From Cognatishimia sp. SS12 (GTDB taxonomy: Bacteria > Pseudomonadota > Alphaproteobacteria > Rhodobacterales > Rhodobacteraceae), in NCBI RefSeq assembly GCF_028369055.1, contig NZ_JAQNCZ010000003.1:1-64000 (forward strand): DNA of 64,000 bases. Reading direction: 5' to 3'. Both the position numbers and the translations under genes were made by a program. The notes beneath the pieces are model-generated. The model searched no databases and was not told the origin of the DNA. It saw only the letters and a list, made by a program, of their open reading frames with translations. How positions within the stretch are numbered: the stretch's first letter is position 1; the number at the start of each line of letters is the position of its first letter. This document shows, piece after piece, positions 1 through 45,255 of this stretch.

Positions 1-54
1 GGCCTGCTTCAAAATACTCATGATCTGAGCGTCGCTATATTTCGATTTCTTCAT
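1..54 (-). CDS. IS3-family transposase OrfA, N-terminal 18 residues only (partial)
   Basis: Reading leftward from the ATG at 54 gives a protein starting MKKSKYSDAQIMSILKQA, which continues off the window. This is the typical opening of the small helix-turn-helix OrfA protein of IS3-family elements, which binds the element ends and is joined to OrfB by frameshifting to make the active transposase. A GAGGAG ribosome site lies just upstream of the ATG. Only the N-terminus is visible, so whether the element is intact cannot be judged. Confidence 0.75.
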   Translation of the reverse strand, partial: MKKSKYSDAQIMSILKQA

Positions 55-188
55 CAGAATCTCCTCTTTCATCATTCGAGAAAATTCTACTTTCAAACAC
101 CCCTAATGTTCGGGGGGATTACCCATAGACTAGCTGAAGTCGCTGTCGCTCTTGCGCGACGCCAAACTCCCAACTGTTCAGTCGGACA
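1..188 (-). mobile_element. End of an IS3-family insertion sequence, cut by the window edge
   Basis: The strip from the left window edge to about base 188 looks like the 5' end of an IS3-family element read leftward. It holds the start of an OrfA-like transposase at bases 1-54 and a non-coding leader. On the minus strand the presumed tip begins TGTCCGACTGAACAG near base 188, next to the terminator that follows the TRAP permease. The exact boundary and any target duplication cannot be fixed because the other end is outside the window. Confidence 0.55.
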
Positions 189-189
189 A

Positions 190-223
190 AATTAAACCCC
201 GAGTTCTCGCCCGGGGTTTAATT
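190..223. terminator. Bidirectional hairpin terminator after the TRAP permease
   Basis: AATTAAACCCCG (190-201) and CGGGGTTTAATT (212-223) form a perfect 12-bp stem around a 10-base loop. T-rich runs follow on both sides (GTCTTTT on the plus strand, TTTTGT on the minus strand). It would end leftward transcription of the TRAP permease operon. It sits directly beside the presumed IS end. Confidence 0.7.
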
Positions 224-241
224 GTCTTTTCTGTTTCCTAA

Positions 242-295
242 GACCTTCGCGTCTGGGTCCGAGGACCTTCGCGTCTGGGTCCTAGGACCTTCGCG
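242..295. repeat. 22-bp tandem repeat, about 2.5 copies, over the TRAP permease stop codon
   Basis: The unit GACCTTCGCGTCTGGGTCC plus three bases occurs at 242-263 and 264-285 with one base difference (CGAG versus CTAG). A partial third copy follows at 286-295. The TAG stop of the TRAP permease lies inside the copy junction, so the last codons of that gene come from the repeat. Confidence 0.85.
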
Positions 296-2294: not shown

Positions 2295-2438
2295 TCGATC
2301 ATCCTTCGAATTTGCAGACTGTAGTTTGTCTGCCGCTCAGTTTGTATGGGGGCTAAAAGGCGTGCCTATCGATGCGAGCATGCCATAGAAAAAGGGCCTG
2401 AGCAGATTGCGCAGACCCTTCCCCCAAAATGTCACACC

Positions 2439-3443
2439 TTACTGAAGCAGACCTGCTTCGCGATAGAAGCGTTCAGCACCTGGGTGCAAAGGCACACCGA
2501 TACCGTTCAAAGCTGTGTCTGCTGTAATGGTCGCGCCTTTGGCATGGCCCACGTCCAGCAGCTTGCGGGACTCATCGTTCCACAGTGCTTTGGTGATGTT
2601 ATAGATCAGCTCTTCGTCCTCTTTTGCAGAGGTGAACCATTGCGCGCCGACAGAAACGGTGGAAACCGCATCGATGCCTTCATAAACGCCCGCTGGGATT
2701 TCGGATTGTGCAAAGAAGCCAAATTTTTCAGTCAGTGCTGCGGCACCCGCGCCATCAATCGGAACCAATTTGATATCAGCCGAGGATGCAAGTTCAACAA
2801 TGCCACCCGTTGGGTAGCCGGCCACTGCAAAGAAAGCATCAATTTTGCCATTGCGCAGGGCCTCTGCTGCCGCATTCCCTTTCAGGGCTTCGGCCTTCAC
2901 ATCATCGATGCCCAGGCCGTTGGCTTCCAGGATCAGCGTCGCGTCAACGAAAGTGCCTGAGCCAGGCTCATCCAGAGACACGGCCTTGCCCGCGAGATCC
3001 GCGACGGAGTTAATGCCGCTGTCAGCAAGCGCCACAAGGTGGATGTGCTCTTCAAACAGCGCCGCGATGGTGCGCAATTCTTTGGCGGGTTCTTGGCCTT
3101 CCATGGTCCCAGTGCCGGTATAGGCCCAATAGGCGACGTCGGATTGCGCGAAACCTGAGTTGCGCAGGCCGGAAATAATCGCATTCACGTTGTCCACCGA
3201 ACCGCGTGACGACACGGCCGAGGCAATCAGCCCGTCAACGCCACAAGAGCCCCCTTGGCCACATTCACGAGACCCCGGAGGTTTGGAGATCGCATTCGCA
3301 ATCACACCGCCAACTGGATAATAGGTGAAGGCTGTGCCGCCTGTACCGATGCTAAAGAACTGAATGTCCTGCGCAATTGCGCCTGAGGCAAGGCCCAGCG
3401 ACAAGGCTGCGCCAACGGCAATGGACTTAAGTTTTGTGATCAT
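2439..3443 (-). CDS. TAXI family TRAP transporter solute-binding protein
   Basis: The 334-residue periplasmic protein captures the substrate for the fused permease encoded just downstream. A cleavable signal peptide covers about residues 1-24, ending GAIAQ before DIQFFSIGTGG. The glycine-rich motif GTGGTAFTYYPVGG at the mature N-terminus is the hallmark of TAXI proteins. Two cysteines in the segment ECGQGGSCG (around residues 60-68) may form a disulfide, as in many family members. It follows the GntR gene by 36 bases, so regulator, binding protein and permease are probably one transcript. The ligand cannot be read from sequence. Confidence 0.93.
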   Translation of the reverse strand: MITKLKSIAVGAALSLGLASGAIAQDIQFFSIGTGGTAFTYYPVGGVIANAISKPPGSRECGQGGSCGVDGLIASAVSSRGSVDNVNAIISGLRNSGFAQSDVAYWAYTGTGTMEGQEPAKELRTIAALFEEHIHLVALADSGINSVADLAGKAVSLDEPGSGTFVDATLILEANGLGIDDVKAEALKGNAAAEALRNGKIDAFFAVAGYPTGGIVELASSADIKLVPIDGAGAAALTEKFGFFAQSEIPAGVYEGIDAVSTVSVGAQWFTSAKEDEELIYNITKALWNDESRKLLDVGHAKGATITADTALNGIGVPLHPGAERFYREAGLLQ

Positions 3444-3479
3444 CTGATCCTCCTGTGTTGGGGGCTTTTTGTTGGTAGA

Positions 3480-4211
3480 TTAAGCCCTTGATTGTATTTC
3501 TTGGTTGGATTGTATGTCTTGGCTGTCGTCCGCAGCACCACTGACCGCGTGCAAGGGGGCTTTGGTGATGTGTTTTCGCAGAATATCCCGGCCCGCTTTC
3601 ACATCACCGGCCAAGACAGCATCCTTCAACGCCTTGTGTTCTTCACCACTCTTGCGGACCCAGCGCATCCGCGAGGTCTCGCTGCGACTGTCTGCATGGG
3701 CCATCAGCCGGAAGCGACGACTTTGGTCATATTGCTGTTCAATGAGGTCGATCAGCTTCTGGGACCCGCAATTCGCAGAAATCATCATATGAAACTCACG
3801 GTTCCGCGCATCCCATTCCAAAACCGTATTATGCGAATCCTTGATCATCTGATCTTCGACTTCGGACAGCGCATAATGCGCCGCTACAATCTTTGACCGC
3901 CAATCCAAATTGGACCTTGAAACAGCCCATTCAAACGCCAGGGCTTCAAGTTCTGCGCGCACTCGGATCGTGTCCTGCATGGCCGCTTTGGACAACTGCT
4001 GAACGCGGAAACCCTTTGATTCTTCGAAGCAAACGTATCCTTCGCCCACCAGCATAGACAACGCTTCCCTGACGGAAGGGTGCGAGACTGAATGGTCCCG
4101 CTTCAAACTTTCAATGTTCAACTTATCACCGGGTTTGATCACCCCGAGCGAAATGTCTCGGCGCAACTCATCGGTCAAGGCGGCAATTACCGACTTCGGC
4201 TTTTTCAACAC
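3480..4211 (-). CDS. GntR-family transcriptional regulator (FadR/FCD subfamily)
   Basis: The 243-residue protein has an N-terminal winged helix (about residues 8-75, with SHPSVREALSMLVGEGYV as the recognition part). A helical FCD ligand-binding domain follows (about 85-220). Family members usually repress a neighbouring catabolic operon until a carboxylic acid effector binds. It lies at the head of the TAXI TRAP cassette and is divergent from an SDR gene. A perfect palindrome at 4312-4326, just after a strong -10 box for the SDR, is a likely operator. The last ~25 residues are polar and look disordered. Confidence 0.9.
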   Translation of the reverse strand: MLKKPKSVIAALTDELRRDISLGVIKPGDKLNIESLKRDHSVSHPSVREALSMLVGEGYVCFEESKGFRVQQLSKAAMQDTIRVRAELEALAFEWAVSRSNLDWRSKIVAAHYALSEVEDQMIKDSHNTVLEWDARNREFHMMISANCGSQKLIDLIEQQYDQSRRFRLMAHADSRSETSRMRWVRKSGEEHKALKDAVLAGDVKAGRDILRKHITKAPLHAVSGAADDSQDIQSNQEIQSRA

Positions 4212-4273
4212 GTCCCCCCCTTTTTACCCGTTGTTTGTCGCACACTAGGGCACGATCCGCCAAGAGGCAAGAA

Positions 4274-4326
4274 TTTACTATATATACATCTGCTCTATAA
4301 TATGATTTTGAAAGATATCATATCTT
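4274..4326 (+). promoter_or_regulatory. Promoter and palindromic operator of the SDR gene
   Basis: A consensus TATAAT lies at 4296-4301 with TTTACT 16 bases upstream (4274-4279). Right after the expected transcription start lies a perfect 7+1+7 palindrome, AAGATAT-C-ATATCTT (4312-4326). A repressor bound there would block transcription; the divergent GntR product is the obvious candidate. The layout also puts the in-frame ATG at 4302 before the transcript start. Confidence 0.6.
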
Positions 4327-4355
4327 CATGCTCTGGGACTCAAGGGATCTCGTCA

Positions 4356-5078
4356 TTGAATACGTACACTAAGCAGCTAAAATCTATCGTTACAGGCGGT
4401 TCTGGCGCGTTGGGCCAGGCAATCGTGTCCAATCTTGTCGCGCGCGGCGATCATGTGGTCTGCATGGATCAGCGGCGGCCCAAAGATGGCACCATTGATT
4501 TTGTCGACATTGATGTGACCGACACCGGCTCGGTTGCACGCGCAGTTGACTGGGCAGTCAAGCGATTAGACGGGATCGACGTTTTGATTCACGCTGCTGG
4601 CATAATGAAAACTGCACCTTTCTGCGAACTCGATGAACCCGCGATGGCACAGCATTTGGATGTCAATCTGATGGGTGCCTTCCGAGTCGCACAACGTTGT
4701 GTAAAACATATGTTGAGCCGTGGCGGGCGGATTGTCTTCATCACGTCGATTCATGGACAGTTTGGCGTTCCCGGTCGCAGCGCATACGCCGCGAGCAAAG
4801 GGGCGATCGCATCTCTCGCTCGTGTCATGGCAGCAGAGCTTGCGAGCCAAAACATCAGGGTCAACGTCCTCGCGCCAGGCGCAATCGACGGCGGCATGAT
4901 GCCAGACCCCAGCTCACGCCAAGGTTGGTTGGATGCCACCCCAAGTCACCGTGTGGCACATTTGGAAGAAGTGGCTGAGATGGCGGCAGTGCTGACATCC
5001 AACAGCGCGAGTTTCATAAACGGACAAGTCGTCGCAATCGACGGAGGCGTCAGCGCTGTTAAGGTGTCTACTTCTTGA
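4356..5078 (+). CDS. SDR family NAD(P)-dependent oxidoreductase
   Basis: This is a classical short-chain dehydrogenase of about 240 residues. The cofactor motif TGGSGALG comes near the N-terminus, then the NAG-like HAAG, and the catalytic region with serine in FITSIHG and Tyr-x-x-x-Lys in YAASK. The C-terminus has the usual NGQVVAIDGG. I choose the TTG at 4356 because AAGGGA lies just upstream, the N-terminus then matches the usual length, and the upstream ATG at 4302 lies before the likely transcription start. It probably oxidises or reduces the compound brought in by the divergent TAXI transporter. The last codons overlap a transposase remnant. Confidence 0.87.
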   Translation: MNTYTKQLKSIVTGGSGALGQAIVSNLVARGDHVVCMDQRRPKDGTIDFVDIDVTDTGSVARAVDWAVKRLDGIDVLIHAAGIMKTAPFCELDEPAMAQHLDVNLMGAFRVAQRCVKHMLSRGGRIVFITSIHGQFGVPGRSAYAASKGAIASLARVMAAELASQNIRVNVLAPGAIDGGMMPDPSSRQGWLDATPSHRVAHLEEVAEMAAVLTSNSASFINGQVVAIDGGVSAVKVSTS

Positions 5079-5380
5079 AAAACTGAGCGACGCCCTCTTT
5101 GTTGGATAGGATCGGATGTAACCTCAGCGCCTCTGCGCTCCTGCTGATCGGGTTGCATGCCGCATGTCTCCAACCAGTGGCCACTGCGGGCGGTCTGCCG
5201 CCCTGGGCCCTGTGCGGACGTTTGTGGTTGTAGAACTCGACCCATTTGGCGTCTCAAGCATAGGCTTTGCTTCTGTTTTCCAACCAGGCAGCGAGGCGCA
5301 TTCGCATTTCACAGATCGCTACAGCCGTTCCACGCAGATGTTGTCACGGACCCGCCCTTTGCCATCCGGTGGGGGGCGCA
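5068..5380 (-). pseudogene. Decayed IS3-family transposase (OrfB C-terminal fragment)
   Basis: Read leftward, this stretch gives pieces of an IS3-type integrase C-terminus in three different frames. GRVRDNICVERL is followed by a stop codon where tryptophan is usual, then RSVKCE. After a frame change comes WVEFYNHKRPHRAQGGRPPA, the conserved end of these transposases. A third frame holds MQPDQQERRGAEV. The stop and at least two frameshifts show it is dead. The fragment ends inside the last codons of the SDR gene. The rest of the intergenic DNA to 5498 shows nothing else recognisable. Confidence 0.75.
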
Positions 5381-5498
5381 CACCGGATCAGCAAGATCGA
5401 TCCGGTGAAGCAGTTGTTAGGTATTCCGCGCATCTGCAGAGGCAAATTGCAGATCGGTCTTAATGCCGAACGAGATCGGGCACCAGTTTTGGCTGACC

Positions 5499-6437
5499 TC
5501 AAAACGCGACCTTGTCGCCCCCCTTCAGATCCAGAAGCTCCCGCGCCTCATCCGGCGTCGCCACTTCGCACCCGAGGTCCTCGACGATGCGGCGGATCTT
5601 GGCGACCTGGCTTGCGTTGCTTTCGGCCAACTTGCCGCGCGAGATGAACAGACTGTCTTCCAGCCCAACGCGAACGTTGCCGCCCATCTGCGTGGCAGTC
5701 GTGCCCAATGTCATCTGTGCGCCGCCCGCGCCCAGAACCGACCAACGATAATCGTCACCAAATAGGCGATCTGCAGTGCGCTTCATGAAGACCAAGTTGT
5801 CGATTTCCGGCCCGATGCCACCAAGGATACCAAAGATGAACTGGATGAAGACGGGTGCCTTGAACAGCCCGATATCCATGCAAAACTTCAGGTTGTAGAG
5901 GTGGCCAACGTCATAGCATTCATGCTCGAACTTGATGTCATGCGGTGCCAGGGTCTCTGCCGCCTCCTTGATGTCGCGGAAGGTGTTACGGAAAATGTTG
6001 CCGTCAGAGTTGGCGACATAGTCCTTCTCCCAGTCGAACTTCCAATCATCATCTTTGTAACGGTTGGCCAGCGGGTGGAACGAGAAGTTCATCGAGCCCA
6101 TGTTCATCGAACACATCTCGGGGCTGAAGGTTTTGGCCGGGTTGATCCGATCCTGAATTGAAAGGGTCAGCGACCCGCCGGTCGAGATGTTCACGACCGC
6201 ATCCGTTGCCTGTTTGATCCGGGGCAGAAAGGGGGCGAAATTTTTGATATCAACCGACGGTGCACCGGTTTCGTTGTCACGTGCATGCAGGTGCAGGATC
6301 GACGCGCCAGCCTCTGCGGCGTCCATCGCTTGAATGGCAATGTCGTCATAGGTATAGGGCAGCGCGTGCGACATGGTGGGCGTATGGATCGCCCCGGTGA
6401 TCGCGCAGGTGATGACGGTTTTCTTTTGGCGTGCCAT
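5499..6437 (-). CDS. BKACE-family beta-keto acid cleavage enzyme (DUF849)
   Basis: The 312-residue protein belongs to the family of 3-keto-5-aminohexanoate cleavage enzyme. These enzymes condense a beta-keto acid with acetyl-CoA and release a CoA ester plus acetoacetate, using a zinc ion. The zinc-binding HLHAR (His49 and His51), ITGAIHTPTMS near the N-terminus and the late GNVRVGLED segment are all present. It is the last gene of the ten-gene operon, 12 bases after the ABC permease. The family is functionally diverse, so the keto acid is not predictable. It implies that the pathway passes through a beta-keto acid. Confidence 0.9.
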   Translation of the reverse strand: MARQKKTVITCAITGAIHTPTMSHALPYTYDDIAIQAMDAAEAGASILHLHARDNETGAPSVDIKNFAPFLPRIKQATDAVVNISTGGSLTLSIQDRINPAKTFSPEMCSMNMGSMNFSFHPLANRYKDDDWKFDWEKDYVANSDGNIFRNTFRDIKEAAETLAPHDIKFEHECYDVGHLYNLKFCMDIGLFKAPVFIQFIFGILGGIGPEIDNLVFMKRTADRLFGDDYRWSVLGAGGAQMTLGTTATQMGGNVRVGLEDSLFISRGKLAESNASQVAKIRRIVEDLGCEVATPDEARELLDLKGGDKVAF

Positions 6438-6449
6438 TGGGCGTGCTCC

Positions 6450-7478
6450 TCAGGATTTGTCTGTTTTACCGGGAACCATGACGCGATAGCCCAGCGGAAA
6501 GAGTTGCAGATCAAAACGGGCGCGGATCAGGCCCCAAATACCCTTGGGTGCTTTCAGCATTATCACGATGGCGACCACGCCCAGAACGATCAGATAGATG
6601 GTGCCGAGATCAGCCAGCGTTTCGCGCAAGGCAAAGAACACCAGCGTACCGACGATCGGCCCTTCGATGGTACCGATGCCGCCAATCACCACGATGAAAA
6701 TAACGAAGGCGGTCCAGTCGTTGACCGAGAACGCCGCATCGGGTGATATCCGCAGTTTTTGCAGAAAGATCAGAGCGCCGATCATCGCGGTGAGCGCCGA
6801 AGTGACCACATAGACGGTGAACTTGGTGCGCCAAATATCGATGCCTAGGCTGCGCGCCGCCAGTTCGTTGTCGCGGATCGCGGTCAGGGCCAGCCCCTTT
6901 CGCGAGCGCAGAAACAGGTAAACGGCGGTGATGACGGTCACGGCAGCCCCAAGCGCCAGCCAATAGCTGAGCGATTCACGCATCGCGCGTTTGGAGGCCA
7001 ACGATTTCACGATGGCCACAGGCAGAGAAGAGCCCGACCCGCCCCCAAGAGACGAGATCTGTGCGAACCCAAGGCGGAACACTTCGGCGATCACCCAGGT
7101 GCCGATGGCAAAGTAGGCGCCGCGCAACCGGAAGATCAGAACCGCCACCGGGACCGAAACCAAAGCGCCAAACACGCCCGCCAGCCCGATGGCTGCAATC
7201 GGGTGCAGCCCAGCGAACATCGTCAGGGCAAACAGCATGTATCCGCCAAAGCCGACAAAGGCCTGCTGGCCGACCGAAACAAGCCCGGCATAGCCAGCCA
7301 TCAGGTTCCACAGGCTCGCCAGCGCGAGGTAAAGAAATATTTCTCCCATCAGCCGCATATCGGCCCGGCCAGCCCACCAGGGGGCTGCCACAAGCGCGAT
7401 CAGAATGAGTGCGCCCAGAATTGCGGCGGTGCGGGCAGCATTTGAGGAACGGGTAACGTGATAATCCTGCAGGGTCAT
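6450..7478 (-). CDS. livM: Branched-chain amino acid-type ABC transporter permease (LivM)
   Basis: The 342-residue inner-membrane permease is the second pore subunit of a LivFGHMK-type importer. It has around nine to ten hydrophobic segments and the conserved family stretch GYAGLVSVGQQAFVGFGGY near residues 63-81. The start overlaps the livH stop by four bases, so the two are translationally coupled. In catabolic operons such transporters often carry aromatic acids, amides or other organic acids rather than leucine. The enzymes in this operon support that kind of substrate. Confidence 0.92.
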   Translation of the reverse strand: MTLQDYHVTRSSNAARTAAILGALILIALVAAPWWAGRADMRLMGEIFLYLALASLWNLMAGYAGLVSVGQQAFVGFGGYMLFALTMFAGLHPIAAIGLAGVFGALVSVPVAVLIFRLRGAYFAIGTWVIAEVFRLGFAQISSLGGGSGSSLPVAIVKSLASKRAMRESLSYWLALGAAVTVITAVYLFLRSRKGLALTAIRDNELAARSLGIDIWRTKFTVYVVTSALTAMIGALIFLQKLRISPDAAFSVNDWTAFVIFIVVIGGIGTIEGPIVGTLVFFALRETLADLGTIYLIVLGVVAIVIMLKAPKGIWGLIRARFDLQLFPLGYRVMVPGKTDKS

Positions 7479-8338
7479 GCTGAAATCCTAGGGAACAGGC
7501 CGTTGGGGCGGATTGCGAGGATAAAGAGAAAAGCCAGGTGACCGGATAGGATCTGCCAACCCGGGTCGACCTTGGCACCCACGGTCTGGGCCACACCCAG
7601 GATCACACCACCAGCCAGCGTGCCCCAAAGATTGCCAAGTCCGCCGATGATCACGGCCTCAAAGCCAAAGATCAGCCGGCCACCGCCAATCGAGGGGTCA
7701 AAGCTGGTGCGGATGCCGAGCAAAACACCGGCAATCGCCGTTACCCCCAGCGCCAGCGCCATGGCGACACCAAAGATATGGCGACGGTTCAGCCCCATGA
7801 GCTGCGCAATGTCCTGATTATCTGAGACGGCGCGGAATGCGCGGCCAAGGGCAGTGTGGTAAAATGTCCATTGCAAGCCCCAGATCACCACGATGGCGAC
7901 AGCGAAGGTCAAAAGCGGCAGCACACCCAGATTGAGACCGCCTACTGCTAAGCTTGCGGTTTCCAGTGTACCTGCATCCATCTTTTGCGGGTCAGCGGTA
8001 TACACCTCTAACAGACCGTTCTGAATGATGACGCTCAACCCGAAAGTCACGAGCAAGGGGGGCAACAGATCGTCGCCCAGTGTCTGGTTCAGCAACCCAC
8101 GTTGCAGCACATAGCCGATCACACCCATCGTCGGGACAACCAAGACCAGCGCAAGAAGCGGATGCAGCCCGGTGGCGGAGGTAACGGTCAGCCCCAGATA
8201 GGCCGCCAGAACAATCAGGTCTCCATGCGAGATGTTGACCAGTCGCATGACCCCGAAGATCAGCGACAAACCGGCCGCAAACAGGGCGTATAGCCCGCCC
8301 AGCAAAGTGCCTTGAACGATTACATTTAGCCAGTCCAT
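7475..8338 (-). CDS. livH: Branched-chain amino acid-type ABC transporter permease (LivH)
   Basis: The 287-residue permease starts MDWLNVIVQGTLLGGLYAL at 8338, the normal opening of LivH proteins. The frame stays open for another 50 codons upstream, but that part overlaps livF in another frame and has no family similarity. The conserved segment GVMRLVNISHGDLIVLAAY follows around residues 35-53, and multiple membrane spans run to the C-terminus. It lies one base after the livF stop and overlaps livM by four bases. Confidence 0.92.
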   Translation of the reverse strand: MDWLNVIVQGTLLGGLYALFAAGLSLIFGVMRLVNISHGDLIVLAAYLGLTVTSATGLHPLLALVLVVPTMGVIGYVLQRGLLNQTLGDDLLPPLLVTFGLSVIIQNGLLEVYTADPQKMDAGTLETASLAVGGLNLGVLPLLTFAVAIVVIWGLQWTFYHTALGRAFRAVSDNQDIAQLMGLNRRHIFGVAMALALGVTAIAGVLLGIRTSFDPSIGGGRLIFGFEAVIIGGLGNLWGTLAGGVILGVAQTVGAKVDPGWQILSGHLAFLFILAIRPNGLFPRISA

Positions 8339-8339
8339 G

Positions 8340-9047
8340 TTATTCGATCCCGAAATAGGCGCGGGAAATGTCCTCACGCGATACTGTATCTGAGGTGCCC
8401 TCAAGCGAGACGCGCCCCTCTTGCAGGCAATAGACGCGGGACGACACTGAGAGCGCCTTGCTGATGTCCTGCTCAACGATGATGGCACTCATGCCTTCGC
8501 CAATGATGCCGGGCAGCGCATCGTAGATATCCTTTATGATGATCGGTGCCAGGCCAAGACTGATCTCGTCGAACAGGATCAAGTCGGGATTGGCCATCAA
8601 CGCGCGGCCAATCGCAACCATCTGCTGTTGTCCGCCAGACAAAGAGGTGGATTGCTGGTCCTTGCGCTCTTCTAGGATCGGAAACAGTTTGTAGACAGAC
8701 TCTAGCGACCAAGGTCCCTTGCGGCCGACCTGCGCCCCGATCATCAGGTTTTCGCGCACCGATAACGACGGGAATAGCTGTCGCCCTTCGGGCACCATAG
8801 AGAGGCCTTGAATGGCGATCTCATCGGCACGCAGACGGCTGATGTCCTTGTCGTGATATTTGATCTGACCCGGACCATTGGACAAAAGCCCGGTGATCGA
8901 GCGCATCAACGTGGTCTTGCCGGCCCCGTTGGAGCCAATGACGGCAAGCACCTCGCCCTCTGAAACTTCCATATCGACGCCATACAACGCCTGAAAATCA
9001 CCGTAGTGGGCGTTAAGCCCTTGTATCTGGAGAATAGGTTCAGGCAT
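8340..9047 (-). CDS. livF: Liv-type ABC transporter ATP-binding protein (LivF)
   Basis: This 235-residue ATPase is one of the two nucleotide-binding subunits of the importer. Walker A is GSNGAGKT, the ABC signature is LSGGQQQM, Walker B is LILFDEIS, and IVEQDIS carries the switch position, where aspartate replaces the usual histidine region. The ATG at 9047 is preferred over the TTG nine bases upstream. It overlaps the livG stop by eight bases, which suggests translational coupling. Confidence 0.92.
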   Translation of the reverse strand: MPEPILQIQGLNAHYGDFQALYGVDMEVSEGEVLAVIGSNGAGKTTLMRSITGLLSNGPGQIKYHDKDISRLRADEIAIQGLSMVPEGRQLFPSLSVRENLMIGAQVGRKGPWSLESVYKLFPILEERKDQQSTSLSGGQQQMVAIGRALMANPDLILFDEISLGLAPIIIKDIYDALPGIIGEGMSAIIVEQDISKALSVSSRVYCLQEGRVSLEGTSDTVSREDISRAYFGIE

Positions 9048-9768
9048 CAGCTTCAATCCCCAGATAAATTTCTTTTACTTCCGGGCTGTTCATGATCGCA
9101 TGCGGCTCGCCCTCGGCGATTTGCTTTCCGAAATCAATCACGATCAGCCGGTCTACGACTTCCAACAGGGCATGCACCACATGCTCGATCCAGATGATCG
9201 TCACCCCCGAGGCATGGATGTCTTTGATCGTCTGCACCAGCGAGGCACATTCAGCCTCGGTCAGGCCCCCGGCGATCTCGTCCAGCAGCAACAGCTTTGG
9301 CTTGGCACATAGCGCCCGGGTCAATTCTAGCCGCTTCCGTTCCAGCAAGGTCAAGCTTCCGGCGAACACATTGGCCTTGGGCAGCAGTTCAGTCTGCTCC
9401 AGCACATGCAGGCAAAATCGTTCGGCTTCATGCCCATACAGACCCGCAGATTGTGTCGCGGCGATCATCGCGTTTTCGAACACAGTCATGCCGGAAAACG
9501 GCTGGGGCACCTGAAACGAACGCGCTACGCCTGCATGACTGCGGCGGGCCGCGTTCCATTTTGTGACGTCTTGACCTGCGAACTCCACCGTGCCGGAATT
9601 TGCGGACAGGGTTCCAGTGATCAGGTTGAACATCGAAGTCTTTCCCGCCCCGTTAGGCCCGATCACACCCAAAGCTTCGCCCTCCTGCACCTCGTAGCTA
9701 AGCGCGTCAGCCACAGTCACGGCACCAAAGGCTTTGCTCAGCCTGTCGAGTTTCAGAATCGCACTCAT
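9040..9768 (-). CDS. livG: Liv-type ABC transporter ATP-binding protein (LivG)
   Basis: This 242-residue ATPase is the second nucleotide-binding subunit. Walker A is GPNGAGKT and Walker B is LLLLDEIAGG. WIEHVV carries the switch histidine. The ABC signature is unusual: the standard LSGGQ is replaced by LTLLERKRLELTRAL, where family members have LSYGQQR-like or LPYGxQR-like variants. It is expected to pair with LivF in the membrane complex. It lies 50 bases after the binding-protein gene in the same operon. Confidence 0.9.
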   Translation of the reverse strand: MSAILKLDRLSKAFGAVTVADALSYEVQEGEALGVIGPNGAGKTSMFNLITGTLSANSGTVEFAGQDVTKWNAARRSHAGVARSFQVPQPFSGMTVFENAMIAATQSAGLYGHEAERFCLHVLEQTELLPKANVFAGSLTLLERKRLELTRALCAKPKLLLLDEIAGGLTEAECASLVQTIKDIHASGVTIIWIEHVVHALLEVVDRLIVIDFGKQIAEGEPHAIMNSPEVKEIYLGIEADA

Positions 9769-9818
9769 GGTATCCTCACCAGATGATAGGGCGGCACCTG
9801 GGCACCACCCATTGGGGT

Positions 9819-11099
9819 TTAGCCAAGCAGTTTTAGCTCGCCTGTCAGTGGGATGTTCGGAGCCGCAGAATTCGCCACGATTTTCAGATCCATCGCATCA
9901 CCGTCCTTTTGCCACTGGCCAGCGACCAGGGGTGTTTTGGTGACGTTGTTGATCGGCCCGTTTGCCCAGTTCACATTGCCGACAATGGTGTCGAGGTTGG
10001 TGCCATTGATGGCTGCAACGATGGCCTCTGGGTCTTCCAGGTCTTCTGCCCGCTTTGCCACATCCGCGACAACTTCGAACAAGGCGTGTTTAAAACCGAT
10101 CGGCTGTGTCCAGCTGCGGCCGGATGCGGCGACGTATCCTTCGGCCAGATCTTTGGAAGACGCGCCCGATAAGGAGGACGAGAAGGGATGGTTCGGAGAC
10201 CACCACACTTCGGAAGAGAGGCCGTCGCCGCGCTCGCCGAGGGATTCGATAACAGATGGGAATAGCAAAGCCTTGCCGATGGTCACGACTTTTGGGGTGA
10301 AGCCCTGTTGCGCAGCCTGCGCCCAGAAGGTGGCAAAATCTGGCGGAATCATGTTGCCGGTAACGATCTCACAACCCGCATTCTTGAAAGCGGCAATATA
10401 ATTGGAGAAATCATCCGACAAAGGCTGAAACCGGCCTGGGTCGACCAGATTGTAACCGGCCTCAGCCAGGGGTTTGGGCAAGCCCAGTTCAGGATGACCC
10501 CAGGCGTTGCCGTCGGCGTCGTTCGGGAACAGCCCACCGACGGATTTAGCGACGCCCGACTTGCCCCACATATCAAGGAACGCGCCGATCACATCTTCCA
10601 AACCCCAGAAGAAATGATAGGTCGAGGCAAAGCCCTCACCCGGCACACCATTGCGGCCAAAGAAATAGGGCTGCCACGGACAATCGGTGGTGATGCAAGG
10701 CACCTCATTCACTTCAGCCTGGTCCGCGACAGGGTTCACCGTGTCAGGGGTCGAGGCGGCAACGATGATGTCGACCTCGTCACCAAGAATTAAATCGGCA
10801 GCCACCTCGGCGGCACGGTTCGGATTCGACTGGCTGTCCTTCGATAGGATCTCGACATTCCAGCTCTTGCCGTTGTTCTCGATCCCGCCAGCTAAGGCTT
10901 TTTTGATGCCCGCAAGCACATAATCATCCGCCTCTGCAAAACCCGCGAGCGGGCCAGTGCGCGGACTGACATGGCCAATGCGCAAGGTCGGGTTGGCGGC
11001 GTAGGCGCGTGTCGCGCTCAGAAGTGCCGGAGCGGCCAATGCGGCTGTGGCACCGGTCAGAAAGCTGCGCCGCGAAGGCGACCTAAAAATCTTTGTCAT
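9819..11099 (-). CDS. ABC transporter substrate-binding protein, Tat-exported
   Basis: The 426-residue periplasmic binding protein of the Liv type (Peripla_BP_6) delivers the substrate to the LivFGHM complex. The N-terminus contains SRRSFLTGATAAL followed by an Ala-rich stretch, a twin-arginine signal ending near residue 34. The mature part begins LRIGHVSPRTGPLAGFAEAD, typical of these binding proteins. At about 390 mature residues it is longer than LivK, like many aromatic- or amide-binding relatives. The Tat signal implies folding before export. Confidence 0.92.
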   Translation of the reverse strand: MTKIFRSPSRRSFLTGATAALAAPALLSATRAYAANPTLRIGHVSPRTGPLAGFAEADDYVLAGIKKALAGGIENNGKSWNVEILSKDSQSNPNRAAEVAADLILGDEVDIIVAASTPDTVNPVADQAEVNEVPCITTDCPWQPYFFGRNGVPGEGFASTYHFFWGLEDVIGAFLDMWGKSGVAKSVGGLFPNDADGNAWGHPELGLPKPLAEAGYNLVDPGRFQPLSDDFSNYIAAFKNAGCEIVTGNMIPPDFATFWAQAAQQGFTPKVVTIGKALLFPSVIESLGERGDGLSSEVWWSPNHPFSSSLSGASSKDLAEGYVAASGRSWTQPIGFKHALFEVVADVAKRAEDLEDPEAIVAAINGTNLDTIVGNVNWANGPINNVTKTPLVAGQWQKDGDAMDLKIVANSAAPNIPLTGELKLLG

Positions 11100-11147
11100 T
11101 CTCTTCCTCCCTTTCGTCGACCTCCTCGCCGACTTCTTTCGTGAATC

Positions 11148-12071
11148 TTACAGTATGGTTTCTAGTTTCGTCAGGTGGCGGGCGACACGGGCACGGACCG
11201 CGTCCGCTTCGTCTTTCGTCCATTTGCGAAACCCTTCGCCCGACTTCATGCCCAACCGGCCATCGGCCACGAGTTTTTCCAAATAAGGCGACGGCCCTTG
11301 GCGGCTTTCGAGGTCGTGCAGGACGTTTTCGTGGATATCGAGCGTGAGGTCGGTGCCAACAAGGTCAGCATTTTCCAGCGGGCCGAGCACAGCAAGGCGG
11401 CGCCCAAAACAGGATTTCACCACGGTATCAACTGCCTCAGCGTCGCAGATACCATTTTCAACAAGGCTTACGGCTTCGCGCCACAAAGCATGCTGTAGCC
11501 GATTGCCGATGAACCCCGGCACGTCTTTTTCAACCATGACCGGCGTCTTGCTTGCGTCTTCCAGCAAGTCGAAGATCGCATTTGCCACAACGGGGTCAGT
11601 CCACTGGGTCTTTACCACTTCAACAAGCGGGATCATATGTGGCGGGTTCCACCAATGGGTGCCGATCGCGCGGCCTTTCAGGCGCAGCTCCGCCATGATT
11701 TTGCTGATCTGAATAACTGATGTGTTGGACGCAAGGATCGCGTCCTCGGGCACATGTTCCTCAACCTCGGCGAAGATTTTCTGTTTGAGTTCAAGCTTTT
11801 CAGGCGCGGCTTCAAACACAAACTTCGCCTCGCCGACGGCCCCCGCCACAGAGCCGCACAGTTCAATTTTTTTGAGGGTGGCAGCAATTTCCGTGTCGCG
11901 TGCACCCAGCAGACGGAGGCTTTCGGAAATCCTCTTTGGCGCCGAAAGTAGAGTATCTTCGACCGGATCGGTAATTCTGACATATTGACCTGCGCGCGCG
12001 AATGTCAGGGCAATCCCGTGCCCCATAAGGCCTGCACCGATAACGGCGATCTGCTGTTTCTTGGCAACCAT
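11148..12071 (-). CDS. 3-hydroxyacyl-CoA dehydrogenase-family oxidoreductase
   Basis: The 307-residue protein has the N-terminal NAD-binding fold with GAGLMGHGIA (residues 12-21). The catalytic histidine context is GTHWWNPPHMIPLVEVV, and the C-terminal helical domain starts with GFIGNRLQHAL. This is the single-domain hydroxyacyl-CoA / L-gulonate or carnitine dehydrogenase type, which oxidises a beta-hydroxy group to a beta-keto group. That fits the BKACE enzyme in the same operon, which consumes beta-keto acids. It ends 48 bases before the binding-protein gene. The CoA or free-acid nature of the substrate is open. Confidence 0.88.
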   Translation of the reverse strand: MVAKKQQIAVIGAGLMGHGIALTFARAGQYVRITDPVEDTLLSAPKRISESLRLLGARDTEIAATLKKIELCGSVAGAVGEAKFVFEAAPEKLELKQKIFAEVEEHVPEDAILASNTSVIQISKIMAELRLKGRAIGTHWWNPPHMIPLVEVVKTQWTDPVVANAIFDLLEDASKTPVMVEKDVPGFIGNRLQHALWREAVSLVENGICDAEAVDTVVKSCFGRRLAVLGPLENADLVGTDLTLDIHENVLHDLESRQGPSPYLEKLVADGRLGMKSGEGFRKWTKDEADAVRARVARHLTKLETIL

Positions 12072-12074
12072 CGT

Positions 12075-12869
12075 TCAGCCCGCCGTATAGCCACCGTCGG
12101 CATAAAGGATATGCCCGGTGTAAAAATCAGATGCCTTCGAGGCCAGGAACAACAATGGCCCGGCCAAATCTTCCGGCTCGCCCAGACGACCAACAGGCAC
12201 GCGGGCCAAAAAGCCATCGCGGACCTTTTTGGCCTCCGGGGTGTCTTCGAACATCCATGCGGTCAAGGGTGAGCGGAACACGGTTGGCGCAATCGCATTC
12301 ACGGTGATCCCATGTGCGCCCAGCTCACAGCCCAGAGATTTGGTGATCCCGTCTGTTGCGGCTTTGGACGCACAATATGCTGTATACCCTGCCGGGTGGC
12401 CCAAAAGGCCGCGTGCAGACGAAACAAGAACGATTTTACCATGCCCTTGGGCTTTCATCTGGCCAGCGGCAGCGCGCGCCAAAAGCCAGCTTTGACTCAC
12501 ATTGGCTTCCATGACGGAATTGAAAGTTTCAGGTGTCATGTCATTGATCAGCGCGACTTTGTTCATGCCTGAAGCGACCACCAGTATGTCCAGCGCGCCA
12601 TAGGCTTTGACTGCTTGGGCCACCAAGCCGTTGCAGATGTCTTCATCGGTCGGGCGGGTGTTGATAGCGGTGACTTCGGCGCCCATGCTGCGGCATTCTT
12701 CGGTGATCTCGTCCAGCGCAGACTGATTCCCCGCGACCAGCACCAGCTTGCATCCCGCGCCCGCCAGAATGCGAGCCGCGACCATACCAAACGCGCCCGA
12801 AGCGCCGGTGATCAAAGCGGTGTTGCCTTTCACATCGAACATGGAAAGAGGGTTTGCCATTACGTTCAT
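12075..12869 (-). CDS. SDR family oxidoreductase
   Basis: The 264-residue short-chain dehydrogenase begins MNVMANPLSMFDVKGNTALI at 12869. The cofactor motif TGASGAFG comes next. The catalytic serine is in VLVSSARG and the Tyr-Lys pair in YCASK, and the C-terminal GHILYADGGY is typical. The open frame continues 45 codons upstream into the cupin gene, but that part is out of family. The gene sits between the cupin and the hydroxyacyl-CoA dehydrogenase with two to three bases on either side. It likely catalyses one alcohol/ketone step of the same pathway. Confidence 0.9.
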   Translation of the reverse strand: MNVMANPLSMFDVKGNTALITGASGAFGMVAARILAGAGCKLVLVAGNQSALDEITEECRSMGAEVTAINTRPTDEDICNGLVAQAVKAYGALDILVVASGMNKVALINDMTPETFNSVMEANVSQSWLLARAAAGQMKAQGHGKIVLVSSARGLLGHPAGYTAYCASKAATDGITKSLGCELGAHGITVNAIAPTVFRSPLTAWMFEDTPEAKKVRDGFLARVPVGRLGEPEDLAGPLLFLASKASDFYTGHILYADGGYTAG

Positions 12870-12870
12870 G

Positions 12871-13215
12871 TCAGCTCTCCGAAGGGTAAGGAATGACAAC
12901 CAACATCTTGCTGGTCTGGTTGGATCGATTTTCCAGAAGGCGCACCTCGCCCGGCGGAATAGTGCAGCTGTCAAGCGGGCCAAGCGTGGTCTCTTTACCA
13001 TCAATGGTCAGCGTCATCTCGCCTTCCAGCAGAACATAGACCTTTTCAAAGGGCGTACTGTCCGGTCCAGCCCCGCCGCCAGGAAGAAACTGACTATAAC
13101 CAACCCACTGGTTTGTCGGGCCACCTACTTCGAACCCCTGCAACCGCAGGCCATAACAGCCAAAATGGTTCGGAGCCTCATAGGGCTGGGCGTCATTGAA
13201 GCGCTTGATGTGCAT
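12871..13215 (-). CDS. Small cupin-domain protein lacking the usual metal ligands
   Basis: The 114-residue single-domain cupin has the beta-barrel pattern with motif 1 region PFEKVYVLLEGEMTLTIDG and motif 2 region IPPGEVRLLENRSN. The HxH of motif 1 is absent and the motif 2 histidine is replaced by arginine, so a canonical metal site is not present. It may bind an organic ligand or act as an accessory isomerase or sensor. It is the second gene of the operon, 66 bases after the cyclase-family gene and one base before the SDR. Confidence 0.8.
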   Translation of the reverse strand: MHIKRFNDAQPYEAPNHFGCYGLRLQGFEVGGPTNQWVGYSQFLPGGGAGPDSTPFEKVYVLLEGEMTLTIDGKETTLGPLDSCTIPPGEVRLLENRSNQTSKMLVVIPYPSES

Positions 13216-13281
13216 GGGTCTCCTCCCGAAATTTCAGTGAAAAGACGACCGCCGGTTGCCCGGCGACCCGTCAGGGAGCGA

Positions 13282-14118
13282 TCAGAATTCTTCGCCCGCT
13301 TCGATGCGGTAATTCTGACTTTTGTCAGCCATGGCAACCAACCGGATGATGCAGCCGTCGCCGCGATCCCAGTTCCACGGGAAGAAGGCAAAGGTCACCC
13401 GCTTTCCGGTGACGGAGTCCAGATCGCCGCCGACATTTTCAATCCCCATAATTCCATTCGAAAACAGGGTGTTGTGAACCGGTTCCCACTCGGGGAAATC
13501 GTCTTTCCAGTCTCTGCCGCCGGACCATTCCTTGTATTCTTCCTCAAGGTGCGGGAGGATCGGGCCGTTCCGTTGAGGGCCAATGGCCGTGGCAAGCGGG
13601 TGGTCGTTGGCCTGGGTGTCGTGGCCAACAACCTTTACACCCTTTTCAACCATCCAATCCGCAGCGGATTGAACAAGGCCGGGACAGTAGGCAAAGTAAT
13701 CGCCATCTTCATACTGCTTATGCCAACCGGTGTTGATGATAAGCACATCACCCTTGCGAATGGCGTGGCCACAGGCTTTTTCCAGATCGTCGCCGGTGAT
13801 GGATTCCCACTTCTTCTTAGGGATCGACACGACCAGACCCGAGCCGAAGAAATGTGGCAGCGGCACTTCGTCAATGAAGGGCGTGCCTTGCACCACATGT
13901 GCAGGCGCATCGATGTGCGTGGTGACATGCATCGTGGTGGTGATCGTCTGGCTCAGTACGCCGGATTTGGCCATGTAGTGCTTCCGGTCAATCTGGACGT
14001 CCTTGAAATAGGGCCAGTTCGGACACTGGTAACCAAACCGGTGGCTCAAGTTCACAAACTCCAGCCCCATGTCGTTATCGTCATTGGCCTGGAACTCGAT
14101 GCCGCGGATTTCAACCAT
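13282..14118 (-). CDS. Cyclase-family metal-dependent hydrolase (kynurenine formamidase-like)
   Basis: The 278-residue protein has the family motif HVTTHIDAPAH (HxxTHxDxPxH), which binds a divalent metal in kynurenine formamidase, isatin hydrolase and related amide or lactam hydrolases. The start at 14118 (MVEIRGIEF) is chosen because AGAGGAG lies eight bases upstream; the longer open frame has no family support. It is the first gene of the ten-gene operon. Ring or amide hydrolysis is therefore a plausible first step on the imported compound. Confidence 0.88.
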   Translation of the reverse strand: MVEIRGIEFQANDDNDMGLEFVNLSHRFGYQCPNWPYFKDVQIDRKHYMAKSGVLSQTITTTMHVTTHIDAPAHVVQGTPFIDEVPLPHFFGSGLVVSIPKKKWESITGDDLEKACGHAIRKGDVLIINTGWHKQYEDGDYFAYCPGLVQSAADWMVEKGVKVVGHDTQANDHPLATAIGPQRNGPILPHLEEEYKEWSGGRDWKDDFPEWEPVHNTLFSNGIMGIENVGGDLDSVTGKRVTFAFFPWNWDRGDGCIIRLVAMADKSQNYRIEAGEEF

Positions 14119-14213
14119 TTGGCACATCTCCTCTGTTCGCCGGAGCCCCGGCGTTTCTGGTTTCAAATTGTCAGGGTGGCTCCTCCACCTGTTCCACATA
14201 GTGATGCATGCGC

Positions 14214-14226
14214 ACCGCATTGCGGT
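14214..14226. promoter_or_regulatory. Palindromic operator candidate between the catabolic operon and iclR gene
   Basis: ACCGCA-T-TGCGGT is a perfect inverted repeat around one central base. It lies between the two divergent genes, 96 bases before the cyclase gene start and 107 before the IclR gene. IclR regulators bind such palindromes. A related half-site, ATCGCAATGCGG, lies at about 14259-14270 after TTGACA at 14250-14255, a possible -35 box. Confidence 0.5.
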
Positions 14227-14332
14227 CAAGAAAAAGTTTACGATGCGGTTGACATGTATCGCAATGCGGGACAGTACTGATTGAAATAGCTTCGGGACTC
14301 AGGGCGGCAAACGACCACAAGAAAGGCGGGAC

Positions 14333-15088
14333 ATGTCTGAAAAGGAAACAAAAAGCGACCGAACCGGGATCCAGGTTATATCGCGTGCAGCATCGATCCT
14401 GCGGGTTCTGAAAGAAGCGCAGGCAGGTATGAGCCTGGGTAAGATCGCCGAGCAGGTGGACCTGCCCCGCTCTACGGTACAGAGAATCACAAGCGCTTTG
14501 GCGGAAGAAAATTTCGTTATCAGCGATGCTCAGGGCGGCGGTCTAAGGCTTGGCCCGGAACTCAGCGCACTGGCGGGCGCAGCGCAATATAACATCGTGG
14601 AACACTGCCGCTTGCTGCTGACCGAGTTGACCCAAAAGACTGGAGAGACCACAGATCTTGCCGTGATGCGCGGCATTGGCATGGTTTTTCTGGATCAGGT
14701 TCCAGGAACGCATCGGCTGACCACTGTCTCCAAGGTCGGAGAGGTATTCCCCCTGACCACAACCGCCAACGGCAAAGCCTGCTTGGCTAAAATGGACCAG
14801 CAGGAGGCAACCAAGCTGATCCGCAATGAATGGGACCGAAACGGTGTGAAGCGGGATATGGCCGAATTGCTGGAGCAACTTGAAGATGTTCGCACACGCG
14901 GGCTCGCCTACGATCTCGACGAGCATGCTTCCGGCGTCTCGGCGATCGGGTTTGCCTTTCATGATTGGGCGGGAGAATTGCACTCCATATCCGTCCCGGT
15001 TCCGTCAACTCGCTTTGCCGAACAAAGGAAGACAATTGAAAAGGCCCTCATCGACACCAGTGCGAATATTCAGCGCACATTTGAGTAA
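14333..15088 (+). CDS. IclR-family transcriptional regulator
   Basis: The 251-residue regulator has an N-terminal winged helix (about residues 10-75, with GKIAEQVDLPRSTVQRITSA as the recognition part). The C-terminal effector-binding IclR domain runs over about 80-248. The family usually controls an adjacent operon for aromatic or carboxylic acid breakdown and senses a pathway metabolite. It is divergent from the ten-gene cyclase-to-BKACE operon, with a palindrome between them, so it is the probable local regulator. AAGGCGGG precedes the ATG. Confidence 0.92.
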   Translation: MSEKETKSDRTGIQVISRAASILRVLKEAQAGMSLGKIAEQVDLPRSTVQRITSALAEENFVISDAQGGGLRLGPELSALAGAAQYNIVEHCRLLLTELTQKTGETTDLAVMRGIGMVFLDQVPGTHRLTTVSKVGEVFPLTTTANGKACLAKMDQQEATKLIRNEWDRNGVKRDMAELLEQLEDVRTRGLAYDLDEHASGVSAIGFAFHDWAGELHSISVPVPSTRFAEQRKTIEKALIDTSANIQRTFE

Positions 15089-15690
15089 ACACAGAGCGGA
15101 GGTGAGAACCGGGTTGGTCATGAACTGCGGTGCGCCCATGTTGGATTCCCTCAATTTCGAGGGGTCGGCGTGCCCCTCGGCAAGAGGCGCTTCAAAGAGC
15201 AATGGGGCGCTCGGCGCATTCGTTCGCGATGCGCCAGCGCATGATCTCACCGCCAATTGGGTTGAGGTCAGACCAGAAATGCCGTCCGTAATAGGATGGA
15301 AATATTCTTCTATACCGTTGCGATGGATGGCCGCCCCCTCAGCGGTTTTTCTTTGCCCTTTCGCCTGCGCGGGGGACTGTGAAAAACCGTTTACTTGGGC
15401 CTCGTAACCTATTGAAAAGTGACCCTGAACGAAACAAGTCCGGTTACAATTTTTCTCTTTGAAATCAAAGAAATTTTCCGGATCATAAATCCGTGTACAC
15501 CTGTTCGATTCCGGTACGCGCCTCCATATTTTTCCAAGGCTTTCGGCAATTTAAGTGCATCATTGCTATCGCGCTTGCCAGTATGAAACTGTTGCGCACA
15601 TTTATGCGGATCATGGGGCCATGTGGTGGGCACCGCACCCGATGATCAAAACCGCCAACTCTGTTGAATGCGAGCGCTTGGAAAGCCGCG
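15089..15690. other. 600-bp stretch without a recognisable protein gene
   Basis: Between the iclR-type gene and the end of the coxM-type gene no open frame gives a recognisable protein on either strand. The only identified object is a degenerate 3' half of tRNA-Cys at 15478-15526. One frame reads MEIFFYTVAMDGRPLSGFS followed by stops, possibly a gene remnant, but I cannot assign it. Scars around a tRNA fragment fit an old integration or excision site. Confidence 0.6.
15478..15526 (+). pseudogene. Degenerate 3' half of tRNA-Cys
   Basis: GTTCGATTCCGGTACGCGCC followed by TCCA matches the T-arm, acceptor strand and CCA end characteristic of tRNA-Cys. Before it lies an anticodon-arm remnant, CCGGA-TCATAAA-TCCGT, where a Cys tRNA would have TTGCAAA in the loop. 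One T-stem pair is also broken (ACCTG for ACCGG). The D-arm and the 5' acceptor strand GGCGCGT are missing. It is therefore not a working tRNA; the shape suits a leftover attachment site or a rearrangement scar. Confidence 0.75.
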
Positions 15691-15702
15691 TTAGCTTTCC
15701 AA
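15678..15702 (-). terminator. Hairpin at the end of the coxM-type gene
   Basis: TTGGAAAGC (15678-15686) and GCTTTCCAA (15694-15702) form a perfect 9-bp stem around a 7-base loop that contains the stop codon of the leftward gene. There is no long T run after it, so it may protect the transcript end rather than terminate strongly. Confidence 0.5.
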
Positions 15703-16431
15703 TTCAAGCAAGGCGCGCTTTGCGAGCACGTGGACCAAATGCGCGCGATATTTGGCGGATCCGAAACTATCATCCAGAACGGCGCTCAGGTCGTCTATGG
15801 GGGTCTGAATGTCGATCTCTTTCGCCCCATCTGCGAAACATCCAGAGGCAACAAAACGCCGCTTTCCCTCTCGTTCGGCGACAAAAACGCCCACCAGGCA
15901 GCTTCGGCTCGCTTGGTGCTGGATACGTGCAAAAGCGGCGCGCTCTGGCAGTGGAATATGAACTGCCAAGATCAAATCTCCGGTCGGACCCTGACCAAAA
16001 AACCTGTGGCTGTCAGTTGTGCCTGCTGTCGTTTCAATCCTGGCACCCAGCGCCAAGAGAGCGGCTGGATAATCACCGCTCGGATCATTGTTGGCGACCG
16101 CGCCCCCCAGCGTGCCGCGGTTGCGAACGGCATTATCACCAATGCAGGCTGCAAGCCGCGCCAGCGCTGGAAGATGTTCAAGGACCGCAGGATCCTGACT
16201 GATCTGCGTGTGCGTGGCCCCTGCCCCGATGCTTAGGACATCCCCTTTACGGCTAATTTTGTTCAAGCCCAAGCGCGAGATATCAATCAGCATTTCTGCG
16301 CTGACCGCATGGGTTTTGATCAGGTTCAGCAAAGTCTGCCCACCGGCCAGATACATATGTGACGCACTGGCACCGCGCTCGCGCACGGCATCCTCAACAC
16401 TGTCAGCCCTGTGATAGTCAAGTTTTGTCAT
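15691..16431 (-). CDS. FAD-binding medium subunit of a xanthine oxidase-family Mo hydroxylase (CoxM type)
   Basis: The 246-residue subunit carries the FAD between the iron-sulfur subunit and NAD or another acceptor. The FAD motifs are AGGQTLLNLIK (residues 29-39) and RNRGTLGGAVANNDPSGDYP (around 105-125). It is somewhat short for the family (about 260-290), with a compact C-terminal domain. It is the last gene of a leftward operon after the XRE regulator, the dioxygenase and the [2Fe-2S] subunit. The large subunit is encoded 3.3 kb away on the other strand. Confidence 0.9.
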   Translation of the reverse strand: MTKLDYHRADSVEDAVRERGASASHMYLAGGQTLLNLIKTHAVSAEMLIDISRLGLNKISRKGDVLSIGAGATHTQISQDPAVLEHLPALARLAACIGDNAVRNRGTLGGAVANNDPSGDYPAALLALGARIETTAGTTDSHRFFGQGPTGDLILAVHIPLPERAAFARIQHQASRSCLVGVFVAEREGKRRFVASGCFADGAKEIDIQTPIDDLSAVLDDSFGSAKYRAHLVHVLAKRALLELES

Positions 16432-44886: not shown

Positions 44887-44967
44887 CAGAAAGGCGGTCA
44901 GCGGTCAGTGCAGCCTCCGCGCAGAAGCGCGCGGCGGTTGGGGCAATTCGATGTCTGAAGAGGAAAA

Positions 44968-45042
44968 TGGCTGGGATGGTAGGATTCGAACCTACGGTAC
45001 ACTGTACCAAAAACAGTTGCCTTACCACTTGGCTACATCCCA
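44968..45042 (-). tRNA. tRNA-Gln (UUG)
   Basis: Read leftward from 45042 the 75 bases fold as a standard cloverleaf. The acceptor TGGGATG pairs with CATCCCA before G and the encoded CCA. The D-arm is AGCCAAGTGGTAAGGCA. The anticodon arm CTGTTTTTGGTACAG gives UUG, and the T-arm is GTAGGTTCGAATCCTAC. It stands at the border between the catabolic modules and the core genes. Confidence 0.95.
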
Positions 45043-45198
45043 ACTGTGGAGCGCTGAATACGACTTCGGTTCAGCATGCGCAAGAGCCGAAAAGCAATTT
45101 TTCGTTCAAAATTCGAAAATTTTTTTCGCTTAGAATGATGCGCTGTTTTTGCTGAACAGTGCGGCGAATTCCCCGATCTGTGCGGGGGGCATACTAGC

Positions 45199-45226: not shown

Positions 45227-45255
45227 CAACCCGCTATGATGATGGGGCGGCGCGA

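Follow-up and report, generated by a model that had tools for sequence, protein, structure and literature searches.

Fragments of tRNA genes left behind by the integration of genomic islands have been described by van der Gulik et al. (2023; PMC9897764). That work reports a 44-bp tRNA-Gln repeat at the ends of the island PYG1 and, in Pseudomonas fluorescens SBW25, a low-scoring second Cys-GCA copy across a putative island of about 121 kb. The locus analyzed here lies in a stretch of 64,000 nucleotides of Cognatishimia sp. SS12, which we call the window. It resembles these cases in having a partial tRNA copy on the far side of inserted DNA, and in SBW25 the tRNA species is also the same. It differs from them in that mutations have changed 5 of the copy's 46 positions, that searches of the locus found no integrase, and that more accessory DNA lies beyond the copy.

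Paracoccus belongs to the same order as this genome. The integration site of the Paracoccus prophage vB_PspS_PD42 is given as tRNA-Cys(GCA) (PMC6536676), so that the likeness consists of a tyrosine-recombinase element at tRNA-Cys in an alphaproteobacterium, although that element is a 42-kb prophage and the one described here a decayed catabolic block. The pelagiphage HTVC022P, too, is reported to use the tRNA-Cys site of its host for integration (PMC12753301); it shares the target gene but differs in being a T7-like SAR11 phage. The tRNA-Cys elements that we found in the genus and more widely in Roseobacteraceae (for example in G008, G002, L120, L175, and L177) have the same target and still carry an integrase gene or part of one, and the element of G008, like that of G007, has the same right border, ending in a replication-initiator gene, as the element in the window. 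Among the papers listed in searches of open-licence PMC text, we found no report of a tRNA-Cys island site in roseobacters; in the available text of PMC11476347 tRNA-Cys appears only in a table, and that of PMC3646047 holds nothing on tRNA sites. A tRNA scar at the end of an island is a well-known kind of structure. Such scars are often only suspected; this one is unusually well documented, with an empty-site relative, clean copies in other relatives, and an identified element end.

A second, mutated copy of the tRNA-Cys 3' half

The genome is assembled in 12 contigs (3.1 Mb, estimated 91% complete), and the window covers contig C6 from its start to base 64000. The single intact tRNA-Cys(GCA) gene of this genome lies on another contig (C11:44004-44077, + strand). 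A first-pass annotation of the window, made from its letters alone, had proposed that positions 15478-15526 are the anticodon-arm-to-CCA half of a tRNA-Cys and had advised aligning them with the intact gene. The alignment bears this out: window positions 15481-15526 (+ strand) are identical to the 3' 46 nt of the intact gene at 41 of 46 positions without gaps. In an ungapped scan of the window, the runner-up placements of this 46-mer had 25 matches on the + strand and 26 on the - strand, and a reversed 46-mer, on the + strand only, reached 25. With a query of 241 bases, BLASTN aligned window positions 15479-15531 with the intact tRNA-Cys at 89% identity over 53 bp (E 7e-13), and all remaining matches in the genome, apart from the query itself, had E-values of 0.1 or worse. 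The fragment is the sole second copy of the tRNA-Cys 3' half that we found in this genome. We also sought a boundary copy near the tRNA-Gln gene further right, searching the window with the 46-mer (at least 31 matches) and with its last 24 bases (at least 18), and recovered 15481-15526 only.

The fragment ends in CCA and has five changes in all. Three are in the anticodon loop (U33 to C, G34 to A, C35 to T), by which the anticodon GCA becomes ATA and U33 is lost. The other two affect one base of the T stem (15502) and one of the acceptor strand (15518). The altered anticodon loop and the T-stem mismatch had been noted before, and both are there, but the acceptor mismatch had been left unlisted. 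The 5' half is missing, as had been proposed: the sequence that precedes the fragment on its left does not correspond to one. ARAGORN called no tRNA at 15481-15526, and a scan of window positions 14300-16000 against Rfam, with E-values up to 5, returned no tRNA and two weak matches below their gathering scores. We looked for points in favor of the fragment being a functional tRNA-like or regulatory RNA and found none; in view of the missing tRNA and Rfam calls and of the mutated anticodon and T stem, this explanation is hardly credible.

The fragment lies in the gap at 15089-15690, between an IclR gene ending at 15088 and a gene for an FAD subunit ending at 15691. The limits of this gap of about 600 bp had been given correctly, but the statement that it holds no gene needs correcting, since it includes the remnant of an initiator gene at 15242-15207, described below.

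The insertion site in the genus

We searched all nine genomes of the genus, this one and eight relatives, for the 46-mer. Besides the intact tRNA-Cys, there are copies with 46 matches in G002, 45 in G003, 45 in G007, and 46 and 46 in G008, which has three copies in total, against 41 of 46 here. The advice to look for a second copy of the tRNA half was thus rewarded by the fragment itself and by second or third copies in 4 of the 8 relatives. These extra copies all lie downstream of tRNA-Cys on the same strand, 8-48 kb apart, and have 0 or 1 mismatches where the fragment has 5 in 46. G005 has one copy (45) that lacks the tRNA 5' half, and its assembly of 280 contigs has no tRNA-Cys match, so that we count it neither way. 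G001, G004, and G006 have the tRNA-Cys copy only. Occupancy of the site therefore varies within the genus.

In G004, a tRNA-Gln gene follows tRNA-Cys after about 0.26 kb on the opposite strand. The DNA to the left of this tRNA pair is collinear with contig C11 of our genome and the DNA to its right is collinear with window positions 44963-64000. With core DNA on both sides and a single copy of the tRNA half, G004 is, to judge from this alignment, the empty site. The tRNA-Gln(TTG) of the window (44968-45042, - strand) is the first shared core feature to the right of the variable region. Because of this collinearity, a single accessory locus seems to comprise window positions 1-44960 together with the final 263 bases of C11. 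In the relatives with tRNA-Cys on the same contig as a segment that matches the tRNA-Gln of the window, the two are separated by 37 kb (G003), 133 kb (G007), 146 kb (G008), and 196 kb (G002), intervals that are not necessarily accessory throughout; in G001 and G006 the two are on separate contigs.

The edge of C11, 140 bases behind tRNA-Cys, is the 3' end of an IS, and the start of C6 is the 5' end of the same IS (window positions 1-124, - strand; orfA start MKKSKYSDAQIMSILKQA, terminal GGTAATCCCCCC), in orientations compatible with an order C11-IS-C6. Nine ends of this IS, recognized by the terminal GGTAATCCCCCC, are found at contig edges: five 5' ends (C6, C8, C7, and both edges of C2), any of which might be the partner of C11, and four 3' ends (C11, C1, C7, and C12). 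We sought a target-site duplication as proof of the C11-C6 join, but by eye no pair of the nine ends shares 3 bases, and such unpaired ends suggest recombination between IS copies. Since the IS ends alone are no proof, it is from the synteny with G004 that we infer a physical join of C11 and C6 across an unassembled IS. If it holds, the fragment would lie roughly 17 kb behind the intact tRNA-Cys, allowing about 1.2 kb for the IS, which we take to be a typical length, and it would presumably be on the same strand across the contig gap. Another join, C11-C8, is possible. C8 starts with the 5' end of the same IS, followed 2 kb further in by an integrase frame (C8:2006-2395, 27.9 bits), which may represent the integrase side that the tRNA-Cys locus has lost, or may belong to an unrelated element. 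The IS looks IS3-like by eye; its C-terminus of 27 residues has no Pfam match, only a weak match to IS481 far below the cut-off. Just behind tRNA-Cys on contig C1 of G003 there is a double repeat of the TCGTACACA type, similar to that behind the tRNA-Cys of C11, then DNA that by eye resembles an IS, and the same kind of element was possibly disrupted in both genomes.

An element end to the left of the fragment

Over 281 bp, the DNA immediately left of the fragment (15200-15480) shares 88% identity with L086, a locus from IMG/VR; with the left flank of copy 2 in G008 it shares 74% over 282 bp. This stretch contains the first 12 codons of a phage-type replication-initiator gene (15207-15242, - strand), broken off at about 15200. 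On its own the protein match of this remnant is at E 0.03, and it falls inside the DNA match to L086 and G008. In L086, G008, and G007, the corresponding gene starts at the element end and reads away from the site, and in G008 and G007 an intact initiator gene adjoins the same site. The protein of G008 matches replication initiators in PHROGs (phrog_270, E 1.2e-16), and it is through this intact homologue that we assign the family of the 12-codon remnant; the homologue in G007 has no Pfam match. Because of this homology to element ends, we read the DNA left of the fragment as the right end of an element that integrated here, with the fragment as its attR.

In L086 the order is initiator end, 46-mer, integrase. 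The IMG/VR record behind this locus (also L200 and L201) spans 15.2 kb and has integrase, portal, major head, and terminase genes, then a tRNA-Phe and frames that look metabolic by eye. We considered whether this record is a free attP form, but its second half does not repeat the 10-20 bases with which it starts, and in view of this and of its gene content it may equally be the junction of two elements in a chromosome. It may also be a small capsid-encoding element inside a chromosome. We used it solely as evidence that initiator end, 46-mer, and integrase occur side by side.

A chance match, or a tRNA pseudogene that arose by local duplication without any element, would account for the absence of an integrase from this genome's copy of the region. 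It is contradicted by the homology of the flank to element ends and by the empty site; moreover, the match is 41 of 46 against 26 for the next best, ends in CCA, and has the same layout in four relatives. We regard this explanation as extremely improbable. Two outcomes that would have spoken against an attachment site are likewise absent: the fragment matches the genome's own tRNA-Cys, and the relative with the empty site lacks the fragment. The first-pass annotation had suggested that the fragment may be an old attachment site marking where a module arrived, and our results support this with two refinements. The fragment is, as far as its flanks tell, the right-hand end (attR) of the element to its left, and the accessory region appears to continue beyond the fragment and to stop at about 44960, immediately short of tRNA-Gln.

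The intact tRNA has a different kind of flank. The 140 bases behind the tRNA-Cys of C11 resemble L148, L142, L132, and G003, and the integrase of L148, L142, and L132 has a reading direction opposite to that of L086. The element that now touches tRNA-Cys may therefore be other than the one whose attR is at 15481. Because the intact tRNA has the flank of another integrase type, stacking followed by deletion is a serious rival: two or more elements with different integrase types would have been stacked between tRNA-Cys and the fragment, and deletions and IS recombination would have fused them, making the left block a mosaic rather than the cargo of a single element. Apart from the difference between the flanks of C11 and of the fragment, the IS ends without matching duplications and the three copies in G008 agree with such a history. 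Against it, the window has no other copy of the 46-mer (at least 31 matches) or of its last 24 bases (at least 18). We consider the mosaic quite possible, if somewhat short of probable.

Search for an integrase

To find a decayed integrase, we compared an integrase profile built in this work with all frame pieces of at least 20 residues in window positions 1-45100 and the tail of C11, and obtained nothing at E-values up to 10. The genome has four matches to PF00589, on C1, C7, C8, and C9, and none on C6 or C11. A tblastn search with three integrase frames gave a single weak match (E 0.07) at 46531-46713, in the core, and no other trace to the right of the fragment.

This last result bears on the idea that the right-hand block (15527 onward) has the fragment as its end on the tRNA side and that the left block arrived independently. 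In tandem arrays, one copy serves as both ends. G007 has an integrase remnant just right of its copy 2, and in five IMG/VR loci (L084, L086, L088, L094, and L109) there is a copy outside an intact tRNA with an integrase frame starting 55-130 bases from the copy start, on the downstream side. The missing integrase trace to the right of the fragment argues the other way, as does the DNA to its left, which is itself an element end, and we judge this arrangement unlikely.

The locus lacks two things that one expects of an intact mobile island or integrative and conjugative element, an integrase near the tRNA and near-perfect end repeats: window positions 1-45100 and the C11 tail have no integrase, and the repeat has 5 mismatches in 46. 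Atypical composition and sporadic gene content, the latter judged from two genes, are both present. Three things that one expects of an attR scar were found, namely a 3' copy ending at CCA, element DNA directly upstream of this copy, and a single copy in the empty site of G004; a fourth, the intact tRNA at the other end of the same inserted DNA, would follow from the C11-C6 join.

tRNA-Cys as an integration site in Roseobacteraceae

To see how widely the site is used, we scanned genome contigs with the methyltransferase gene that neighbors tRNA-Cys, which gave at least 591 pattern matches, at least 569 of them to relatives, and kept the best 80 loci. Among these, 61 have the tRNA-Cys 3' half within 900 bp of the methyltransferase gene on the opposite strand. 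In the remaining 19, the copy is elsewhere in the locus in two (L168 and L194), and 17 have none at 36 of 46 matches or more. When only the Roseobacteraceae loci of this set with at least 400 bp of downstream DNA are considered, a tyrosine-integrase frame lies within 400 bp behind the tRNA-Cys 3' end in 30 of 56; beyond the methyltransferase gene on its other side, none of the 80 loci has such a frame in the stretch covered. The profile was built iteratively from the same set of loci, and its weak members are less certain. A second 46-mer copy within the covered stretch was found in 2 of the 61 (L120 and L149). Integrases beside the tRNA-Cys 3' end, as in G002, L120, L175, L177, and others, are common at this orthologous site in Roseobacteraceae.

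Exact matches to a 36-base piece of the tRNA 3' half are present in 36 stretches of IMG/VR, and 35 of them have an integrase-like frame within 2 kb of the copy; in the exception, L092, it is about 9 kb away. Five of the IMG/VR loci (L084, L088, L094, L109, and L112) have two integrase frames and a tRNA-Cys 3' copy. In L112 this copy is the intact tRNA itself, with an integrase frame on either side. In the other four, one integrase is found upstream of the copy, at a distance of about 9-10 kb, and the other immediately follows the copy, a layout that looks like tandem small elements of satellite size at one site.

The tRNA-Cys gene beside a gene for a protein-repair-type methyltransferase is a much-used integration site in Roseobacteraceae, which helps to predict where accessory catabolism is located in these marine bacteria. 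In the present genome, the scar shows where accessory catabolic DNA came into the chromosome and forms a boundary between two blocks of it.

History and gene content of the locus

Most likely, an element that has since lost its integrase entered at tRNA-Cys and displaced the 3' end of the tRNA, which is now the fragment (attR). This integrative element, with a tyrosine integrase, would have targeted the 3' half of the only tRNA-Cys gene and completed the gene with the copy of this half that it brought along, and the original half would have been moved to the far end, giving attR at 15481-15526, with the right end of the element and its inward-reading initiator gene directly to the left. Subsequently, the integrase and most mobility genes would have been lost, an IS would have settled near tRNA-Cys, the initiator would have been cut to 12 codons, and the unused tRNA half would have gained five substitutions. 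The catabolic block at 130-15088 would be what remains between the tRNA and attR, and the second block, out to tRNA-Gln, the leftover of one or more older insertions at the same spot. We infer both the order of these events and the arrival of the left catabolic genes with the fragment's element. Taken as a whole, insertion at tRNA-Cys, an attR scar, and later decay is an explanation that we hold with high confidence, and the reading of the fragment as an attR scar seems about as firm as one can make it from sequence alone.

The left catabolic block (130-15088) encodes a TRAP transporter, a GntR regulator, SDRs, a BKACE-family enzyme, a branched-chain-type ABC transporter, a 3-hydroxyacyl-CoA dehydrogenase, a cupin, a cyclase, and an IclR regulator. 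It is probably the cargo of the fragment's element, and the module likely arrived with it. The survival of only 12 initiator codons implies that replacement or deletion removed what else the element had, and a later arrival of the catabolic genes by another route is possible. Beyond the fragment, the second accessory block (15527-44960) encodes a molybdenum hydroxylase, an intradiol dioxygenase, a TRAP transporter, hydantoinase A/B, an MttB-like methyltransferase, and others, and within it we found neither an integrase nor a further att copy. The GC content is 56.4% in the left block (130-15200) and 55.5% in the second, compared with 60.1% in the core to the right and 60.4% in the core to the left. 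At E 1e-20, none of the 8 relatives has a match to the cyclase gene of the left block; for the dioxygenase of the right block, the nearest proteins of the relatives are 36-39% identical and occur in 4 of the 8.

It is also conceivable, and we offer it tentatively, that in this genus the stretch from tRNA-Cys to tRNA-Gln serves as a permanent cargo bay into which catabolic modules are brought. Elements ending in an initiator gene would repeatedly deliver operons for TRAP or ABC transporters, degradation enzymes, and a regulator towards their attR end; in the present genome the element would have decayed and the catabolic genes stayed. The pattern is seen in part in G007, G008, and this genome. 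The first island of G008 has type IV secretion, relaxase, and TRAP genes with the initiator at its right end, and the island of G007, which also has the initiator at its right end, encodes a type I restriction enzyme and, in the part that leads up to the initiator and attR, has a TRAP gene. If this reading is true, the scar records the fixation of a metabolic trait.

The BKACE-family gene (window positions 5499-6437) passes the NCBI cut-off for 3,5-dioxohexanoate:acetyl-CoA acetone transferase. It is near the branched-chain-type ABC transporter and the 3-hydroxyacyl-CoA dehydrogenase gene, and a diketo acid pathway is a possible role for these genes. Finally, a reverse transcriptase gene (RVT_1) is found in the first tRNA-Cys island of G008 (G008:C4, L066:15910-17475).
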